This document shows, piece by piece, positions 2,880-21,410 of a stretch of DNA of 35,399 nt (its first letter is position 1; each line of letters opens with the position of its first letter). Both the position numbers and the translations under genes were made by a program. Location of the stretch: assembly GCA_951801825.1 (NCBI GenBank), contig CATOOF010000001.1, forward strand, positions 444,132-479,530, given 5' to 3'. Source of the DNA: an uncultured Alphaproteobacteria bacterium (GTDB lineage: Bacteria > Pseudomonadota > Alphaproteobacteria > Rs-D84). The notes under the pieces were generated by a model. The model saw nothing but the letters and a program-made list of their open reading frames with translations. It made no database searches and had not been told where the DNA came from.

Positions 2880-3872
2880 TTATTCCCGTTTTTCCTTGCC
2901 CTGTATCCAGCCCTCAATCTTGCGTATTATCTGGGCAATTTTTTCCAGCTGGTCGTCGTTAAGTGTGTTCATCGGGGTATTTAACGTAACACCTGTGGCG
3001 CGTTCCACACTGCGCTGATATGAGGATGTGTTGTTGCCATCGGTTGGCGGGGCCCATGCGCTGATTGCACCCCCCAGTGTCTTGCTCTGGTATCGCGAGG
3101 TTTTCAACAGTTTTACTATCGCGTTCATCCCGGTCTGTTCATCGGGGAATGCGGCAAATCCGCCCGCCCGGCCAATTCCGCCGACACTGTCGCTAAAGCG
3201 TCCGGGACGAATATTACCCGGATTATTGTTACGCCATGCTCGCGAGCCGCTGCTGCGTCTTATTTTTGATTCATCGCGATACGTATAAATTACGTCGCGG
3301 CCTGATTCGTGCGCCCGCACAGGACCATTATCACTACCGGTCGGGGCCGGGTTATCTGTCTGGGGTTCTTCGGTTATTGTCTGTGTATCAACATTGTCCA
3401 CATTTTCTTCTTCTGGTGTATTTTGTGTGCCGGCTATTGCGCCACTGTCGTAAATATCTAACTCTTCGTATAAATCGTTTTCATTTCGCCCGGATAGACG
3501 GGTATTACGGGAATCCAGCATTGACTGGATGTCCGCGACAGACATTTCAATTGTTTTGCAGCCGCGCTGGAATAAATCGTCGCCAAATATAACATTTATT
3601 ACCGGTCCTGTGACCGATGCGATTCCTAATACAAGAATCAGGTTGCGCATATTTGTAAAAATATCGTTTTTTGCGCCACGAATCATGGAAATTGCCCATC
3701 CGAACAGTAACAGTCCCGTTACGCAAACCAATGCAATCCATGCATATTCTGCAAAGTTTGCAAATGCTCGTAAAACGCATGAAGGGTCTTCAAATGAAAT
3801 GACCTGACCGCTGGTTCGGATGTTTTGAAATCCGGCGTTTTCCATTAACCGAAGAATTTGATTTAAATCCAT
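2880..3872 (-). CDS. Two-helix membrane protein with C-terminal muramidase-like domain
   Basis: A 330-residue protein in two parts. Residues about 42-105 hold two membrane helices (WIALVCVTGLLLFGWAISMI and NLILVLGIASVTGPVINVIF), a hairpin reminiscent in layout of T4SS pilin-like proteins. A low-complexity acidic linker follows. The C-terminal 120 residues begin SGSRAWRNNNPGNI and include AAFPDEQTG, AISAWAPP and IRKIEGW. This domain is shared with the protein at 5515 and resembles phage/conjugation-associated peptidoglycan-active domains (P5-like). The hydrolase role is inference. It starts three bases after the stop of the gene at 3876, so the two are translationally linked. Confidence 0.6.
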   Translation of the reverse strand: MDLNQILRLMENAGFQNIRTSGQVISFEDPSCVLRAFANFAEYAWIALVCVTGLLLFGWAISMIRGAKNDIFTNMRNLILVLGIASVTGPVINVIFGDDLFQRGCKTIEMSVADIQSMLDSRNTRLSGRNENDLYEELDIYDSGAIAGTQNTPEEENVDNVDTQTITEEPQTDNPAPTGSDNGPVRAHESGRDVIYTYRDESKIRRSSGSRAWRNNNPGNIRPGRFSDSVGGIGRAGGFAAFPDEQTGMNAIVKLLKTSRYQSKTLGGAISAWAPPTDGNNTSSYQRSVERATGVTLNTPMNTLNDDQLEKIAQIIRKIEGWIQGKEKRE

Positions 3873-3875
3873 TTA

Positions 3876-4919
3876 TTATTTTTTAGATGCCGCGGTGGTA
3901 AAGAATCCGGGTATTGCAAAGTCTTCGTCATTTGCGGCGACGCCGGCCCATCCGAATAAATCGCCCATCAGGCCCGTATCTTCGCGACGTGCTTTTTTGA
4001 ACGGCAGAATGTTTTTCAGTTTTCCTATTTTTCCCTGGTTCTGGGCCGGGGAATGCGTGGGCAGTTTGTCTTCGGCATCTGCGAATTCCGCCGCCAGCTG
4101 TTCCAGTGTTGCATCCGCATCATCTGGGCGTACAAAGTCCGTGACGGATATATCCATGGGGGCCATATCATCGTTATTGTCGGCCGCCGTTGCGTCGCCA
4201 TGATCTTCACGCAGTGGTGTCATGCTTTCCAGTAACTGTTCCAGTGTTTTTTCAATCGGTGCCTCGGGGGCGTCATCGGCAATCATATCTTCGATTGTAA
4301 CGCTTTCTGCGATGATTTCCGGCTCTGGTTCTGGCTCCGGCTCTTCGTGTGCTGTTTGTGCCACAGGCTCTTCTTCAATCAACGGTTCCGGCTCAGATAC
4401 TGCTGCCACCTGGGGGATTTCGGCATCAGGTGCCGCATTCGCCGCCAGCACAGATAAAATAGGAATTACTTTTGTTTCGGATGCCGTGCTCTCAGAATCT
4501 GGTTCAATGGCGGCGTCATTGTTTTCTGGTTCAAGAATCGGTGTCTTGCGCGGTCTGCCACGCGTTTTTTTAACGGGCGTGGTTTCTTCTATTATAGTGG
4601 CGGTTGCCGGCATCTCGTCTGGTACGGTGGCCGGGGCCTGTATCGGTTCTTCGGTTTGGGGGGCTGTGGCTAATTGTTCTGTATCGGGTTCTTCTATTAT
4701 ATTTGTAATTTCTTGTGTTTCCGGGGTGTGTGTTGTGGCGTTATCAGTAATCGTGCATGATTTGGGCGCCGCCAATGCGTCATCATTGTCAACCGGAACG
4801 CCAAACAATACCGTATCATCCCCCAGCCCTAATGTTGTGCGTACCTCTTCAAATGCTGCGCGCACATCGGACATTTCAAACACTTCACTGCCGGAAATAT
4901 AGATGATTTTAGTTTTCAT
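3876..4919 (-). CDS. Acidic, Pro/Glu-rich protein with GRPRK motif, unknown function
   Basis: A 347-residue protein dominated by Glu, Asp, Pro, Ala and Thr, including an EP repeat, and so probably largely disordered. The first 50 residues look folded (MKTKIIYISGSEVF onward). A basic TRGRPRK patch near residue 120 matches an AT-hook core. The C-terminus (LKNILPFKK, GDLFGWAG, IPGFFTTAASKK) is hydrophobic and probably a conserved docking segment. GGGGGG about seven bases before the ATG can serve as ribosome-binding site. It heads the three-gene minus-strand operon. Its function is not recognised. Confidence 0.6.
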   Translation of the reverse strand: MKTKIIYISGSEVFEMSDVRAAFEEVRTTLGLGDDTVLFGVPVDNDDALAAPKSCTITDNATTHTPETQEITNIIEEPDTEQLATAPQTEEPIQAPATVPDEMPATATIIEETTPVKKTRGRPRKTPILEPENNDAAIEPDSESTASETKVIPILSVLAANAAPDAEIPQVAAVSEPEPLIEEEPVAQTAHEEPEPEPEPEIIAESVTIEDMIADDAPEAPIEKTLEQLLESMTPLREDHGDATAADNNDDMAPMDISVTDFVRPDDADATLEQLAAEFADAEDKLPTHSPAQNQGKIGKLKNILPFKKARREDTGLMGDLFGWAGVAANDEDFAIPGFFTTAASKK

Positions 4920-5516: not shown

Positions 5517-6216
5517 ATATCTGGCGCTGCAACGAGTCCGTTATCATCTTGTTTCTTCTTGCGGCCAGCATGCTTTTATGGGATTCGCGGTGTTCGATTT
5601 CACCGGTGCGCCATCCCTCAATAACGCAGATTGCGCTAACTACTTTTTCCATTTCTTCGGAATTCAAATCCCCCAGTCTTTTGTTCAGCGGCAATCCCGT
5701 CATTTTACGCAGGCGCTGTTTATATCTGGCCACGTCATTTTCATAGGGCGGTGCATATTTTATAATCGCGCGCTCTATGCTCAGGTTTTTATAACCATCG
5801 CCACGCAACAAGTCTGCCAGCGCCGCGCGACCGGTCTGTTCGCCTGGGAATACTGCGAATTTGCCGCCTTTGCCTAAGGCGCCTTTTTCGCGTGTAAATT
5901 TGCTGTAAACCAGACAGCCCGGATTGTTATTACGCCATGCGCGCGAACCGCCGCTGCGGCAAATTGTATCGCCCGTGTTCATGATGTACAGAATGTCGCT
6001 CTTTTTATCAATTGTTTCCACAACAATCGGTTCTATTTCGTCCCATTGTGTTTCTGCGGCAACAGAATCGATAGGCTGCTTTACATTGTCGTTGACATTT
6101 ATATTATATTCTTTTTTATCTGTAAGCGGTGACGCGACAGAATTCGATATATAAGAACTACCGAAAAGTGTCGCAGTGCCGGCCAACAGATATTTTACTA
6201 CAGTTTTTTTATTCAT
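5515..6216 (-). CDS. Exported protein with P5-like muramidase domain
   Basis: A 233-residue protein from the ATG at 6216, which is chosen because GGGG lies just upstream and a signal sequence follows (MNKKTVVKYLLAGTATLF...SVAS). After a 70-residue acidic linker, the C-terminal domain SGGSRAWRNNNPG, FAVFPGEQTG, AIIKYAPPYEND, CVIEGW is closely related to the domain at the end of the protein at 2880. By analogy with phage- and conjugation-associated domains it may act on peptidoglycan; no catalytic residue is proven. It is preceded by a structured leader RNA (6217-6411) shared with the gene at 6442, with which it forms an operon. Confidence 0.65.
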   Translation of the reverse strand: MNKKTVVKYLLAGTATLFGSSYISNSVASPLTDKKEYNINVNDNVKQPIDSVAAETQWDEIEPIVVETIDKKSDILYIMNTGDTICRSGGSRAWRNNNPGCLVYSKFTREKGALGKGGKFAVFPGEQTGRAALADLLRGDGYKNLSIERAIIKYAPPYENDVARYKQRLRKMTGLPLNKRLGDLNSEEMEKVVSAICVIEGWRTGEIEHRESHKSMLAARRNKMITDSLQRQI

Positions 6217-6411
6217 TGTTTTCCCCTTTGCAATCAAACAGGGCGTGCCAAATACCGCGCACGGTCCTGATTTTGGTGTTATACGTTTTTTTGATTGGTT
6301 CGACGTGATAGAATGAATGTCACATCGTACATTCGAACAGCACATACATTTGTGCCGCCCCGACTTACCTTTCGGCAGCCCGCCCCGTTTCCAGGGAACC
6401 AAGGTTTTGTG
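6217..6411 (-). promoter_or_regulatory. Leader RNA with alternative helices, copy E
   Basis: Between the genes at 6442 and 5515. On the minus strand a1 TTGGTTC (6402-6396) can pair with the first half of a2 GAACCAATCAAA (6301-6290), whose second half can pair with a3 TTTGATTG (6238-6231), immediately before the ribosome-binding site. Blocks shared with copy F are GGGCGGGCTG (6385-6376), GTAAGTCGGGG (6368-6358) and GAATGTACG (6334-6326). A helix GTTCGA/TCGAAC encloses the middle. This fits control of translation; the signal sensed is unknown. Confidence 0.65.
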
Positions 6412-6441
6412 GTGTTCTGTCATACAGACACCGGCCAGAGG

Positions 6442-7548
6442 TTATCCCCTGGCAATCTGTAGCTGGTGCTCCATCGCGATTAGCTTTGGCGCCGGCTCAG
6501 ACATAATTTGTTTAACATCGTCGCCAAAGTATTTTGCATGCACCAGGCGCAGTAATTCTGTGCGCGGCAACGCCTGCAGACTTTTGGCGGATATTTCCGT
6601 CCCGTTGGTAATGTATTCAATCATCTTTTCACGGGGCATTGATTCCAGCCGCTTTAACTCGCGTTCGTATTCAATCTGCAGAATTTGTTCAATGTCTGCA
6701 CTGAATACGTTCGACATGTCCCATGCCTCGAATACATCGCCAATGCGTTCGCGATTATGTGCCGTGAACATATATTTGCCGGTTTTTCCCGGAACAAATT
6801 CGCCGGCCTGGACCTGTCCCTGGCCCAGGAACATAATCGCGTGGAATTTGGTTTTTGCCCCACGAAAGCGCGGAACAATCCATATACTGCCCGGGCTGAC
6901 GTGTTCGGCTGAAAAATTACGACGTGCGAATTCCGCGGTTGCCGCCGCACGTGCGTTCGGTGCGGATTTGTCGGTAATGCCGTGTTTCGCCAAATATTTT
7001 TTCAGCTCTGCGTTATATGCGGAATCAGATGCAAATACCCGGCCTTCTTTTATTACGCCATCGTATTCTGGTCGTGCATATTTTCTACGCATCTGGTCCT
7101 TGAATGCGACACATGCGCTTTTCCCGTTTTTTGGAATAACGGTCAGTGTGTCGCCATTTTCATTCAATGCACGCATCAGTTGGGTGTACTGGCCGTACAT
7201 GCAGTGCATTCCGACCGGCGCCCCGGGCAGTTCGCGGCGTACCGCGGCGCGATATCCGCGTGTTCCGAGTGCGGGCTTTAGACGTTTTTGTGCGGCCAGC
7301 ATATTTTCGATATACATATCGCACGTATTTTCGGCCCGCGCCAACAGGCGTGATTTCATAATGTCATATTGCTTTTTGTAATCAACAATCATTGCCGCCT
7401 TTGCAACCAGATTGCCGGGCACTTGCAACTCTGTCTTGGGCTTTTGCCCGACTGGCAGGTGCGATTCTTGTGCCATGGTGGAGTTTTTGCTGAATACAAC
7501 CGCGCTTCCTATTAGCAGATAAGGAAACACTTTTTTATAAATATTCAT
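6442..7548 (-). CDS. Exported protein, possible papain-like (CHAP/NlpC-type) fold
   Basis: A 368-residue protein from the ATG at 7548 (AGAGGG upstream), with a signal peptide ending near STMAQ. A cysteine in ENTCDMYIENML followed much later by PGSIWIVPRF and FHAIMFLGQGQ recalls the Cys...His layout of CHAP/NlpC amidases, but the match is weak and the function is inferred. The C-terminal third is helical and charged. It is the first gene behind promoter 7757-7785 and leader RNA 7549-7749. The gene at 5515 follows with its own copy of the leader. Confidence 0.55.
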   Translation of the reverse strand: MNIYKKVFPYLLIGSAVVFSKNSTMAQESHLPVGQKPKTELQVPGNLVAKAAMIVDYKKQYDIMKSRLLARAENTCDMYIENMLAAQKRLKPALGTRGYRAAVRRELPGAPVGMHCMYGQYTQLMRALNENGDTLTVIPKNGKSACVAFKDQMRRKYARPEYDGVIKEGRVFASDSAYNAELKKYLAKHGITDKSAPNARAAATAEFARRNFSAEHVSPGSIWIVPRFRGAKTKFHAIMFLGQGQVQAGEFVPGKTGKYMFTAHNRERIGDVFEAWDMSNVFSADIEQILQIEYERELKRLESMPREKMIEYITNGTEISAKSLQALPRTELLRLVHAKYFGDDVKQIMSEPAPKLIAMEHQLQIARG

Positions 7549-7749
7549 TTTATTCCCTCTTTGCAATCAAACGAATGATATGCGTTTGTGCATTTCATTC
7601 TGTTTTATGTGTTTTTGATTGGTTCGTTGCGATAAAATAATAAACTCGCCACGTACATTCAGATATTCGATTAACCCGAACACCCCGACTTACGGTGCCT
7701 GTATAAAAGCGCACACACAGCCCGCCCTAAAAAGGGAACCAAGGTTTTG
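7549..7749 (-). promoter_or_regulatory. Leader RNA with alternative helices, copy F
   Basis: The 5' leader of the gene at 6442, same plan as copy E: a1 TTGGTTC (7742-7736), a2 GAACCAATCAAA (7625-7614), a3 TTTGATTG (7571-7564), conserved blocks GGGCGGGCTG (7727-7718), GTAAGTCGGGG (7793-7683 region, precisely 7693-7683) and GAATGTACG (7660-7652). A hairpin GAATGA/TCATTC lies between a2 and a3. The a3 helix ends four bases before AGAGGG. The intergenic region of 350 bases holds this leader, its promoter and the terminator at 7863. Confidence 0.65.
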
Positions 7750-17524: not shown

Positions 17525-17552
17525 AAAAAATCCGGCCAACGCCGGATTTTTT
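17525..17552. terminator. Bidirectional terminator between gap and the DGR
   Basis: Perfect 12-bp stem AAAAAATCCGGC / GCCGGATTTTTT with loop CAAC. It ends both gap and the DGR reverse transcriptase transcript. Confidence 0.9.
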
Positions 17553-17553
17553 G

Positions 17554-18579
17554 TTATTGCAGATATTTGTTGTAAAAACGGATAAACGCGTTGTCCCCGG
17601 TCTGTCTGGCGTCGGAACGAAACTTTCGCCGCAGGTTATTACAGCGCGCCCACTTCATCCAACCACTGAACGCGGCCAGCTGGCTGCGGCTATGGGCGGA
17701 AATTTCTCTGTTCTGTATCAGCGTGCGCATATTTTGTTTCATTTTTTTTACGCCGGCCTTGGTTAAAATGACATAATCTTTAAAGTGACGGTATCCGATA
17801 AAGCTTATCCCGGCATCTGTTGGCTTTATAAAAGATTTAGAGAATGTCAGTTGCAGCTCTTTCCCCAGATACTCTTGCAATGTATTGCGCCATTTCCGCA
17901 GTGTTTCAATATCATTGGCAAACAGACAGAAATCATCACAGTATCGTATATAGTCGCGCACATGCAATTTATGCTTTATAAACATGTCTAAATCGTTCAT
18001 ATACAGATTACCCATCCATTGACTGGTTAAATTTCCAATTGGCATACCGCATTCCGTATAGGCCGAGCAGACAATATCCTCTAACACTTTCAGTATTCGC
18101 CGGTCCTGTATTTTCCGTCGCAGTATTTTTATCATGATTTCATGACGTATGCTGGGATAGAATTTGCGTATATCGCATTGCAACACGTATTTGTTGCGCC
18201 GCAGCATTTGCATACACCGATGCGATGCCTCATGCAGGCCGCGCCCCGGTATGCATGCATAAGAATCGCTGATAAACAGTTTCTGCCAAATAGGCCCCAG
18301 TATATTTATAAGCGCATGATGTACGATATGATCCGGATACAGTGGTAACATGAATACTTGTCGTTTCTTGGGCTCGTAAACGAAAAATATGCGGTATTGT
18401 CCTGTTTTATATGTGCCGTTTTTTAAGGATTTGCGCAGTCGCGCCAATTTTTGTTCACGGTGTCGCATAAAGATTTTTGCAGATATTTTGGATTTTTTTC
18501 CGCGCAGGGCATGGTCTGCGGCAATTTCGAAATTTTCCGCGGATATAAAATCGTTCCACAAATGTTTGTGTGTTTTCAT
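17554..18579 (-). CDS. Diversity-generating retroelement reverse transcriptase
   Basis: A 341-residue reverse transcriptase with only the RT palm and fingers plus a short C-terminal thumb. It has no maturase or endonuclease domain, which argues against a group II intron. Motifs in order: VFMLPLYPDHIVHHAL with SDSYACIPGRG (RT2), CDIRKFYPSI with catalytic D136, GMPIGNLTSQ (179-188, the SQ signature of DGR enzymes), YCDD with D215 and D216, LTFSKSF, and ISFIGYRHF. The start overlaps the stop of the accessory gene (ATGA), implying coupling. Together with TR and VR it completes a DGR, where it would copy TR RNA into adenine-mutated cDNA. Confidence 0.95.
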   Translation of the reverse strand: MKTHKHLWNDFISAENFEIAADHALRGKKSKISAKIFMRHREQKLARLRKSLKNGTYKTGQYRIFFVYEPKKRQVFMLPLYPDHIVHHALINILGPIWQKLFISDSYACIPGRGLHEASHRCMQMLRRNKYVLQCDIRKFYPSIRHEIMIKILRRKIQDRRILKVLEDIVCSAYTECGMPIGNLTSQWMGNLYMNDLDMFIKHKLHVRDYIRYCDDFCLFANDIETLRKWRNTLQEYLGKELQLTFSKSFIKPTDAGISFIGYRHFKDYVILTKAGVKKMKQNMRTLIQNREISAHSRSQLAAFSGWMKWARCNNLRRKFRSDARQTGDNAFIRFYNKYLQ

Positions 18580-18902
18580 GAAAAAGAATAATACTTGTCG
18601 ATTTTTACAATTGTTGTACAGAATGGAATGTTTTCTTTTGCAGATTGAATCTGGTCTATTAAAACACTGCTGCCTGTAAATACGACACAGATATTTTCAT
18701 CCAGAATAAATTGAATCTGCAGACAATCTGTTCCGTTTTTCTTTTTACTGCCCGATATTCTGAAATCTGTAATGGTGATTTCACGGTTTAAAATATCATT
18801 CATAAACTTTTTGTCGCCGGGCATTGGCAGTTTGTCGCGTGCAAATATGGAAAATTTAGGACACTTTGATTTATCAAGTTTTTTTATATCTTCGATTGTC
18901 AT
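18576..18902 (-). CDS. Small DGR accessory protein, not Avd-like
   Basis: A 108-residue protein from the ATG at 18902, chosen over one eight codons upstream because AAAGGAA lies directly before it. The sequence alternates short beta-prone segments (EITITDFRIS, DCLQIQFILDE, ICVVFTGSSVLI, TTIVKIDKYYSFS) and looks like a small OB-type or single-strand-binding-like fold rather than the four-helix bundle of Avd. It sits exactly where an accessory factor is expected, between the TR RNA and the RT, and is coupled to the RT by a 4-base overlap. A role in template RNA or cDNA handling is inference. Confidence 0.7.
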   Translation of the reverse strand: MTIEDIKKLDKSKCPKFSIFARDKLPMPGDKKFMNDILNREITITDFRISGSKKKNGTDCLQIQFILDENICVVFTGSSVLIDQIQSAKENIPFCTTIVKIDKYYSFS

Positions 18903-18903
18903 T

Positions 18904-19160
18904 TCATTTCCTTTTGTTAAAGACAATCAAACATTCGGGGGTTCGCCGGGTAAAGTAGCAGTTACTATCCCGAATGTTTCCTGCGTTATTTGTTCGGAGA
19001 ATGTGTCGCCACATTCTGCCGGGATATGTCGCCCCGCCTTTGATAAGGAAGGCATACAAACAGACGTTTTTATCCGTCTGAAAAGTGTTGTTTCGCACTT
19101 TGTCCTGCAGGTTAGCCAAACTTTATTTCCTTGCGTTATAAAGTTACCATTCCCCAAGGA
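18904..19160 (-). ncRNA. Structured DGR RNA spacer downstream of TR
   Basis: The stretch between TR and the accessory gene is packed with stem-loops. They are AAACATTCGGG/CCCGAATGTTT (18929-18939 with 18969-18979), AGAATGTG/CACATTCT with loop TCGC (18998-19017), GCCTT/AAGGC around 19036-19053, CAGACG/CGTCTG around 19060-19080, and AAAGTGT/GCACTTT around 19082-19100. In the Bordetella phage DGR the region just after TR is part of the structured RNA that primes cDNA synthesis, and this spacer is in the matching place. The assignment rests on position and structure. Confidence 0.6.
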
Positions 19161-19293
19161 GCCGACCGACCCGAACACGCCCGCACGGAACCCGGATTCG
19201 GCCCGGACGTTGATACCGCAGTTGTTCGCGCAGTTCGACCTGCAATCGGCAACCGAGGCATAAGTGATCCGGAACACCCAACGCGAGACCGCC
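19161..19293 (-). repeat. DGR template repeat (TR)
   Basis: A 133-bp copy of the 3' end of the target gene (VR at 19479-19611, offset 318). The two differ at nine positions: 19197, 19211, 19214, 19226, 19234, 19246, 19261, 19265 and 19268. Every one is an A in the minus-strand (coding) sense of TR: six A-to-G, two A-to-C and one A-to-T. Sixteen such adenines exist in TR; none of the other 117 positions differ. The adenines lie mainly in first and second codon positions, including four AAC codons, as in other DGRs. The 33 bp nearest the 3' end contain no adenine. Confidence 0.97.
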
Positions 19294-19332
19294 AATCGAA
19301 CCCGAACAGTCATCGTAGCGGCGACACACCCC

Positions 19333-19354
19333 ATTCCCGGATTTGCCCGGGAAT
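19333..19354. other. Hairpin between VR and TR
   Basis: Stem ATTCCCGG/CCGGGAAT, loop ATTTGC. On the plus strand it is followed by TTTT, so it could be a weak terminator there. On the minus strand it lies just upstream of TR and may be a structural part of the DGR RNA. Confidence 0.5.
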
Positions 19355-19391
19355 TTTCAAAAAATTTCGGCCTGCGGCGCTGGTTCCCACC

Positions 19392-19412
19392 GGGGGCGGG
19401 GTCGCCGCCCCC
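19392..19412. other. GC-rich hairpin between VR and TR
   Basis: Stem GGGGGCGG/CCGCCCCC with a 5-base loop. It lies between the post-VR hairpin and TR. Its role is unknown. Confidence 0.5.
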
Positions 19413-19432
19413 GAACCCACACCCAGTAACCG

Positions 19433-19453
19433 GCCTATGCGTTTCGCATAGGC
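19433..19453 (-). other. Post-VR hairpin/cruciform
   Basis: Minus-strand GCCTATGCG AAA CGCATAGGC, a perfect 9-bp stem with a 3-base loop, 25 bp beyond the end of the VR. In the Bordetella phage and other DGRs a short perfect hairpin just downstream of the VR raises target-site use by forming a hairpin or cruciform. Position, stem length and the small loop match. Confidence 0.75.
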
Positions 19454-19472
19454 ATTACCGCATACCGCTTTA

Positions 19473-19925
19473 TCAATTGCCGACCGACCCGAACACGCCC
19501 GCACGGAACCCGGACTCGGCCCGGACGTAGAGACCGCAGTTGTCCGCGCAGCTCGACCTGCAACCGGCAACCGAGGCAGAAGCGACCCGGAACACCCAAC
19601 GCGAGACCGCCGGATGCGTCATTTTGCACCAACAATATTTGCCGGTTCTTTCACCGCCGGTGGCAATTTCACCATTTGAATCACGCAGCTCTTCAACAGA
19701 ACTGTTCATCTGGCCACTGGTATCAACACATGTGGCTATACCCCAGACGGTCCCGTATGAAAATGTTGCCGACCATTCAAACAAATCTGAATTATAAGTG
19801 TTGCTTATCCCCGAAATAACCGGGTCCAGCACGATTGCCAATGTATCGTCCGTTGCGCACATTGTGGTTGCCCCGGCCGATGCGCAAAACATTGCAATTA
19901 GCCCCGCCATCATTATTTTTTTCAT
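19473..19925 (-). CDS. DGR variable target protein, secreted and Cys-rich
   Basis: A 150-residue protein from the ATG at 19925, chosen because a GGGGG tract lies upstream and a signal peptide follows (MKKIMMAGLIAMFCASAGA). The C-terminal 45 residues are encoded by the VR. The residues that differ from the TR-encoded version are I-V, T-A, Y-S, D-G, N-S, N-D, I-L and N-Y, around conserved cysteines and the pattern CWC...SRWVF...C..C...C...GFR. The stop codon directly follows the VR. The protein resembles its neighbour at 19947 and lacks an obvious C-type-lectin core, so the variable scaffold may be a small disulfide fold. It is exported and presumably binds a surface or ligand. Confidence 0.9.
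   Translation of the reverse strand: MKKIMMAGLIAMFCASAGATTMCATDDTLAIVLDPVISGISNTYNSDLFEWSATFSYGTVWGIATCVDTSGQMNSSVEELRDSNGEIATGGERTGKYCWCKMTHPAVSRWVFRVASASVAGCRSSCADNCGLYVRAESGFRAGVFGSVGN
19479..19611 (-). repeat. DGR variable repeat (VR)
   Basis: Target copy of TR, 124 of 133 bases identical, ending two codons before the terminus of the target gene. Its 3' end on the coding strand is GC-rich and free of mismatches, as expected for an initiation-of-mutagenic-homing site. The homology ends abruptly at 19611; beyond it target and TR flanks are unrelated. Confidence 0.97.
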
Positions 19926-19946: not shown

Positions 19947-20432
19947 TTACCAAATCGCCAGATATATTCCATTTGTGCGAAAATTATTAGTGTTATCCTT
20001 TATCGCGGTCGCGCATGCGCTGGTACAGCCGGCATCGCATGCATCTTCGCTGTCGAATGCGCCGTAATACACCCACCATGAAGTTACCGGGCCGCTCAAA
20101 CTGCACCAGCATTGTGTCCCAATGTCCGCACTGCTGGCGCGCAGATATACGTTTGCATCGCCGGGTGCGGCGGTGATCTCTGCGGTGTTGGTCGTTATTT
20201 CGTTGCATGTGGCGGTTCCGTTCAGCGTTCGCTGGGATGAATTGTTTGGCACCAGATCATATCCAAACCGCAGTGTAAAAGTTTTTTCTGCCGTGTTAGA
20301 AGATACAGATGTTGGATTCTCGCTCTTCTTTATTGTGAATACTGCCGTGCGATTACGAATGCATGTTGTTGCCGCATATGCGCCGGCATAAAACAATGTT
20401 AATAATATTGATAATGATATTGTCTTTTTCAT
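19947..20432 (-). CDS. Secreted Cys-rich paralogue of the DGR target
   Basis: A 161-residue protein from the ATG at 20432 (GGGGGAA upstream), with signal peptide MKKTISLSILLTLFYAGAYA. It shares the target protein's C-terminal plan: CWCSLSGPVTSWWVYYG, then CDAGCTSAC and FRTNGIY, matching CWCKMTHPAVSRWVF, CRSSCADNC and FRAGVFG. Its DNA shows no close match to TR, so it does not appear to be an active VR target. It lies 20 bp from the target start and 18 bp after the gene at 20451, so all three are probably one operon. It may be a fixed partner or the ancestor of the variable gene. Confidence 0.75.
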   Translation of the reverse strand: MKKTISLSILLTLFYAGAYAATTCIRNRTAVFTIKKSENPTSVSSNTAEKTFTLRFGYDLVPNNSSQRTLNGTATCNEITTNTAEITAAPGDANVYLRASSADIGTQCWCSLSGPVTSWWVYYGAFDSEDACDAGCTSACATAIKDNTNNFRTNGIYLAIW

Positions 20433-20450: not shown

Positions 20451-21410
20451 TTAATCTGATATATGATACGTGCCCGTGGCAGATTTTATATTCATAACGC
20501 CACGTGCCGCCCCCGGTAAAAAGTTGATATAGCAAACCCCGTTCGACGTTTTGATGTTCAGTGCCGGCGTGGTCAGCTTTTCTGCATACAACGGCCATGC
20601 ATGGCCGCCGGCGGCATGCATTTCTGTTATCCCATGCGGGCAGGGCGTTGCGCATGTCCCCAGGCCTGTGTATGTCTTGTCGCGCTCGCACAATATGGCG
20701 CATAATCCATTTGATACGGCCCCCGATGCACAGTTCGCATTCAAACCATATGATACGTAATCCGATGCGCATGACATGTTTTCAGGTATGCTAAGCGTTT
20801 CTTCCGCGCCCGTGATGTCGTAAAAGTTTTCAGGGCATTCGCCGCGCTGGTACGCTGTGCATTCGCCATCGGATAAATATTGGCCATTGCCGCACAGTTT
20901 TGCACCGTATGCAACCAAAACGCCATTATATATCGGGGTAAAAAATTCGGGTAACTCGTATTGGCTATAAGAGTTCATACATTCCTCTAGCGTGGCTGAT
21001 GGCACCGAAAATGTTGCCTGGCCGATTTCAGTCTTGTATGAACCGTCTGGGCATTGCCCTTGGTTTTTTTTCTTGCATTCGCCGGCAATCAAGTGTTCGT
21101 CGGCGCCACACAGTTTTGCGCCATATTTTACCAGAACGCCATTATAAATCGCATGAAAAATATCCGGCAACTGTTCCTTGTTGTATGAATTCATACATTG
21201 GAGTTTCAATGTCATTGCCGAATATGTTGACGCATCAATAAGCGTTTCATAGTATCCGGCCGGACAATCATTTTGCATTTTTTCGATGCATGTACCATTG
21301 CTAAGTTGTTGGTCATTTTCGCACAACATAGGCCCATATCGCACGACGGTTGCGGCACTTGACGTGCCGTGAGCCGCTGCAATTGCTAATAAAATAATTA
21401 CGCCCCTCAT
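20451..21410 (-). CDS. Secreted protein with three Cys-rich repeats
   Basis: A 319-residue exported protein (signal MRGVIILLAIAAAHGTSSA). Three repeats of about 70 residues begin YGPMLCENDQQLSNGTC, YGAKLCGADEHLIAGEC and YGAKLCGNGQYLSDGEC, each followed by a C-P-x-G/N-x-Y segment. The first two end CMNSY...PIYNGVLV and HAIYNGVLV; the third diverges. A different C-terminal domain (PCPHGITEMHAAGGHAWP onward) follows. It heads the operon of the DGR target and its paralogue, behind the attenuator-like RNA at 21425-21608. A cell-surface role is likely; the exact function is unknown. Confidence 0.75.
   Translation of the reverse strand: MRGVIILLAIAAAHGTSSAATVVRYGPMLCENDQQLSNGTCIEKMQNDCPAGYYETLIDASTYSAMTLKLQCMNSYNKEQLPDIFHAIYNGVLVKYGAKLCGADEHLIAGECKKKNQGQCPDGSYKTEIGQATFSVPSATLEECMNSYSQYELPEFFTPIYNGVLVAYGAKLCGNGQYLSDGECTAYQRGECPENFYDITGAEETLSIPENMSCASDYVSYGLNANCASGAVSNGLCAILCERDKTYTGLGTCATPCPHGITEMHAAGGHAWPLYAEKLTTPALNIKTSNGVCYINFLPGAARGVMNIKSATGTYHISD

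Follow-up and report, generated by a model that had tools for sequence, protein, structure and literature searches.

Avd, a four-helix accessory protein (PF22296/PF05635), is usually counted as an essential component of diversity-generating retroelements (DGRs). In a closely comparable system, the DGR of Bordetella phage BPP-1, Avd and the reverse transcriptase (RT) bRT are encoded on either side of a template repeat (TR), in the order avd-TR-brt, and the target gene mtd, which carries the variable repeat (VR), encodes a phage tail fibre (PMC3240598, PMC12875486). In BPP-1, the complex of bRT and Avd is recruited by the spacer RNA, which also primes cDNA synthesis (PMC12875486), and the post-VR element consists of stems of 7-10 bp at 4-34 bp from VR (PMC3240598). 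Among DGR RTs from complete genomes, no more than about 62% are reported to have an Avd-like neighbour (PMC8934634). For the DGR of the archaeal virus ANMV-1, a figure legend names one ORF Avd, without the text telling which (PMC4372165).

The window analysed here, a stretch of 35,399 nucleotides from an uncultured Alphaproteobacteria bacterium, contained a complete DGR (17554-19925, minus strand) consisting of a target gene with VR, a TR, a spacer, an accessory gene, and an RT gene. Its parts and the adjoining members of the target gene cluster were:

17554..18579, minus strand: DGR reverse transcriptase, 341 aa, with D136, YCDD (213-216) and a GMPIGNLTSQ motif (assigned by Pfam, PHROG, PDB and tree)
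18576..18902, minus strand: accessory protein, 108 aa, predicted OB-fold
18903..19160, minus strand: spacer RNA between TR and accessory gene, with conserved structure (fold z, covariation)
19161..19293, minus strand: template repeat TR, 133 nt, 16 adenines
19433..19453, no strand assigned: post-VR inverted repeat GCCTATGCG-AAA-CGCATAGGC
19473..19925, minus strand: target gene, 150 aa, with signal peptide (recognized by eye) and predicted Cys-patterned VR helix
19479..19611, minus strand: variable repeat VR, 133 nt, in frame at the 3' end of the target gene
19947..20432, minus strand: target paralogue without VR, 161 aa, in the same gene cluster
20451..21410, minus strand: Cys-containing protein, 319 aa, with N-terminal signal-like stretch, a conserved upstream member of the cluster

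The first-pass annotation had placed such a one-strand set of parts in this interval, and both its coordinates and its parts agreed with the present analysis. As it had claimed, the catalytic residues D136, D215, and D216 (the latter two within YCDD) were present, the RT and accessory frames were uninterrupted, and adjacent genes were coupled, with the accessory stop overlapping the RT start as ATGA. Its accessory gene also stood, with one correction: the most likely start is the ATG at 18902, not the upstream TTG, yielding 108 aa, because nearly all relatives begin at the equivalent MT(I/L).

With BPP-1 (PMC3240598, PMC12875486), the locus has in common a DGR-clade RT, adenine-specific TR/VR differences, a spacer RNA after TR, and an inverted repeat after VR. 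It differs in that an unrelated 108-aa predicted OB-fold protein is found instead of Avd, in its gene order (VR-TR-accessory-RT), and in its target, a short, predicted secreted, Cys-rich protein encoded on the chromosome. The cassette is of an already known kind, and is a variant through its accessory family, the predicted fold of that family and its mutual exclusion with Avd. The most complete explanation, a chromosomal DGR kept vertically in the genus, in which an OB-fold accessory replaces Avd and a secreted protein is diversified, is considered highly probable. The parts themselves, the kinship of the RT, its linkage to the accessory, the adenine specificity, the covariation of the spacer RNA, and the hairpin can all be read from sequence, whereas co-transcription, present-day retrohoming, a binding role of the accessory, and export or surface display of the target are inferred.

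TR and VR differed at nine positions, and at all nine the TR base was adenine (hypergeometric P = 4.2e-10 for 16 adenines among 133 positions). The same bias was observed throughout the genus, where 371 of 394 mismatches in 29 aligned TR/VR pairs fell on TR adenines, corresponding to a change at 52.5% of adenine sites as compared to 0.73% of other sites. Between close species, adenines were involved in few of the TR differences (0/14, 1/21, 1/20, and 0/8), unlike differences in the RT gene, of which about half to 65% involved adenine. This difference indicated selection for the retention of TR adenines. Within a genome, TR and VR were identical at non-adenine sites while TRs differed between species, which argues for repeated TR-to-VR copying (concerted evolution). 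No second or remote VR was found in the genome (897 kb, 95.7% complete). Elsewhere in the genus, two loci (L088, L105) carried one TR and two VR-like copies each, so that a single template may serve several targets. At a further locus (L119:895-1560), the target ORF did not stop at its VR, which was TR-like and rich in AAC, but continued into sequence resembling the spacer; this represents either a fusion of TR and target or a collapse in the assembly (L119 and L100 are from the same genome).

With 16 adenines among 133 positions, the TR was adenine-poor, the lowest of the 29 genus TRs save one locus with a shortened TR. Comparison with the TRs of three relatives (L076, L113, L080) showed loss of 7 of 21 ancestral adenines, while 5 of the 92 remaining sites had changed (Fisher p 0.001). 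In the TR of L077, 3 of 21 adenines were lost, all by A to G changes, and 0 of 86 other sites had changed (p 0.007); both p-values concern a handful of sites that were picked after inspection. The TRs of L113 and L076 had lost no adenines. The VR at 19479-19611 carried the same derived states as the eroded TR, while the VR of L077 retained the ancestral adenines. These observations suggest that the TR itself is occasionally rewritten. The loss would be explained if mutated cDNA were written now and then into TR, or if a diversified copy had converted it; for the 5' part of TR, where L079 is similar, recombination with another TR version is possible. Loss of 7 of 21 adenines reduces the diversity that can be reached, and the locus thus offers a natural case of template adenines in the course of being lost.

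Such erosion could also be expected of an inactive relic, a once-active DGR that is now frozen. Besides the low adenine content of the TR, the presence of a single VR fits this explanation. It is nevertheless unlikely in view of the intact frames and catalytic residues described above, and of the 85-90% identity that RT and accessory still share with those of the nearest species. Moreover, the VR combined the derived TR states with nine further adenine-specific changes, which indicates that homing took place after the TR had changed.

A hairpin after VR, proposed in the first-pass annotation, was recovered as an inverted repeat lying 25 nt downstream of VR, which can form a 9-bp stem with an AAA loop or an 8-bp stem with GAAAC, and which fits the BPP-1 element (PMC3240598). 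Of the 29 genus loci, 12 had a stem of at least 8 bp after VR, where shuffled sequences predicted 0.07, and one had such a stem after TR; relatives retained the post-VR stem with altered sequence. The structured spacer that had likewise been proposed was supported by a folding energy of -78.2 kcal/mol for 18900-19160 (z = -4.0 versus shuffles) and by compensatory changes among relatives. In an alignment of 20 relatives, 97.6% of cells were paired and compensatory double changes occurred in 15 of 32 pairs. The number of double-change cells (58, versus 17.7 in shuffled alignments) and the covariation score (0.355, versus 0.213 in shuffled and 0.07-0.12 in slid alignments) both exceeded their controls. 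No Rfam family was matched at gathering score. By analogy with BPP-1, the spacer probably has the same role.

In the mechanism proposed for this locus, the region from target through TR and accessory to RT would be co-transcribed. The structured spacer RNA that follows TR would then recruit the RT together with the OB-fold accessory, in place of Avd, and start cDNA synthesis across TR. The RT would misincorporate opposite TR adenines, and the mutated cDNA would be copied into VR with the aid of the hairpin just downstream of it. As an outcome, about ten codons on the Cys-patterned helix of the secreted protein would be diversified.

Eight of the nine VR changes altered the encoded amino acid. 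Across the genus, the VR pattern was W-x-F-N-N-x-N-S-S...C-A-N-N-C-A-N-N-C-A-N-N-V-R-N-N, with a Cys at every fourth residue and the changes located in paired AAC codons between them. A structural model of the target with moderate confidence (pLDDT 70.6) showed strands followed by C-terminal helices holding the VR. A fold search with this moderate model gave no C-type lectin match, and its best match of any kind had a Z of 3.8. VR is thus predicted, though not firmly, to form a Cys-patterned helix rather than a C-type lectin. The target is probably exported or surface-displayed. The trio of target, VR-less paralogue, and 319-aa protein recurred in other species; the 319-aa protein had no Pfam match. 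Two more paralogues of the target family without VR match (L135, L137) were observed elsewhere in the genome (G000:C1:3841-4549).

Sequence comparisons of the accessory protein with Pfam, NCBIfam, PADLOC, and PDB yielded only matches at chance level, and its best PHROG match was PHROG 19665 (0.003), a family without known function. Neither a PF05635 match in the genome nor, with an Avd model, an Avd near the RT was found; this model was derived from loci of which five out of six were confirmed as PF22296. Pfam confirmed bAvd in seven out of seven cases tested. By sequence, the protein encoded at 18576-18902 is therefore not an Avd. Among 177 RT-bearing loci, the accessory occurred in 125 (119 without six genomes that were present twice), Avd in 40, neither in 12, and both in none; because accessory loci were partly collected by searching with the accessory, these counts do not estimate its frequency, and absence of Avd was not a criterion for their collection. 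A search of IMG/VR with the accessory alignment alone retrieved 80 loci, 76 of which had an adjacent DGR RT; in 61 of these 76, an adenine-biased TR/VR pair was detectable. Within the genus, the accessory was found in 38 of 39 RT genomes and the RT in 38 of 40 accessory genomes (156 genomes). In one of the two accessory genomes without RT (G147), an RT fragment adjoined the accessory. All accessory-bearing RTs, including those of many virus DGRs, formed one clade (support 100), with a single change between accessory and Avd on the tree.

OB-folds are five-stranded barrels in which a helix separates the third strand from the fourth. An AlphaFold2 model of the accessory (pLDDT 89.8) showed an OB-like barrel with the strand order b-b-b-a-b-b. 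Its structural matches were mostly OB domains (SSB, PriB, RPA, LEF-3, RuvBL) with Z of 4.6-7.5, where a Z of 8 is firm, and Foldseek E-values were weak (0.03 or weaker). The accessory most likely replaces Avd, and the simplest reading of these results would be that of an Avd-replacing, nucleic-acid-binding partner. The accessory could instead be a hitchhiking neighbour outside the DGR chemistry, since it has no known function and its position varies, between TR and RT in the genus and after the RT in most viral loci. This explanation is very improbable in the light of its adjacency to DGR RTs in the 76 viral loci and 38 genus genomes mentioned above, its failure to co-occur with Avd, and the restriction of accessory RTs to one fully supported clade. 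Interpreted as a DGR component, the accessory provides a clear, testable partner with a predicted fold for one clade of DGR RTs without Avd.

Two archaeal viruses, one of them ANMV-1, also carried the accessory family. In the ANMV-1 DGR (PMC4372165), which is viral and has a different target, the homologue AJP62065.1 is annotated only as a hypothetical protein and is encoded directly 3' of the RT (L221, 4001-4297); its identity to viral accessory-family members was 41-42%. Among the papers listed in a literature search, none tied a DGR to an OB-fold. According to PMC10053308, Wu et al. (2018) described one DGR-associated protein without Pfam or CDD entry; by this description, that protein resembles the accessory family in being DGR-linked and lacking a Pfam family, and the two may be the same. 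A broader generalization is tentative and somewhat more doubtful than not. It holds that a large DGR lineage, spread over bacterial chromosomes, phages, and archaeal viruses, carries out mutagenic reverse transcription with a nucleic-acid-binding OB-fold partner instead of Avd and diversifies, in this genus, a Cys-patterned helix instead of a C-type lectin, with a template that is sometimes self-rewritten at the expense of its adenines.

The RT matched RVT_1 in Pfam (1e-16) and PHROG 1423 (5e-103). Its best relative in PDB was 8ub7 (E 1e-44), which we take to be BPP-1 bRT, followed by group II RTs with E-values of 3e-22 or weaker. NCBIfam models for group II, retron, and DRT enzymes also matched, all far below their curated cut-offs. 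In a tree of 128 rows, built with a short search and with SH-aLRT as the only support measure, the RT grouped with DGR RTs including BPP-1 bRT, separate from group II RTs (SH-aLRT 100). The check by tree suggested in the first-pass annotation thus bore out its designation of the RT as DGR-type. Matches to group II and DRT profiles might suggest that the RT instead comes from a retron, group II intron, or defence system with a chance repeat nearby; this is extremely improbable on the basis of the adenine-specific TR/VR differences, the tree, and the best PHROG and PDB matches.

Near-complete RT matches occurred in about 39 of the 156 genomes of the genus, each representing one species. The DGR was flanked by genes for GAPDH, tRNA isopentenyltransferase, and PriA on one side and by other chromosomal genes on the other, and its synteny was kept in six relatives (L076-L080, L113). 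These housekeeping flanks and the conserved synteny indicated that the locus is chromosomal and not a prophage; a phage origin was rejected on the same grounds, with a gyrase/topoisomerase subunit as a further flanking gene. DGR-driven protein diversification thus appears as a stable chromosomal trait of about a quarter of the species, in genomes of ~0.9 Mb. Among 385 Alphaproteobacteria, a sample poor in genomes of the genus, the accessory was found in one genome besides that of the window. This near-absence makes it probable that the element entered the genus by horizontal transfer and was retained thereafter.

A second, distant DGR in the genus was observed in L115 (G144; 5918-7696, RT orientation). 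Its RT was 31% identical and 13 of its 14 mismatches were A-biased; neither the accessory family nor Avd was detected nearby. In L113 (G012; 3086-4106), the RT was encoded in two overlapping frames in an otherwise complete DGR, reflecting a frameshift or a sequencing error. A GC-rich inverted repeat with a T-run, recognized by eye at 17528-17552 of the window where the GAPDH and RT genes converge, is likely a terminator shared by both genes.
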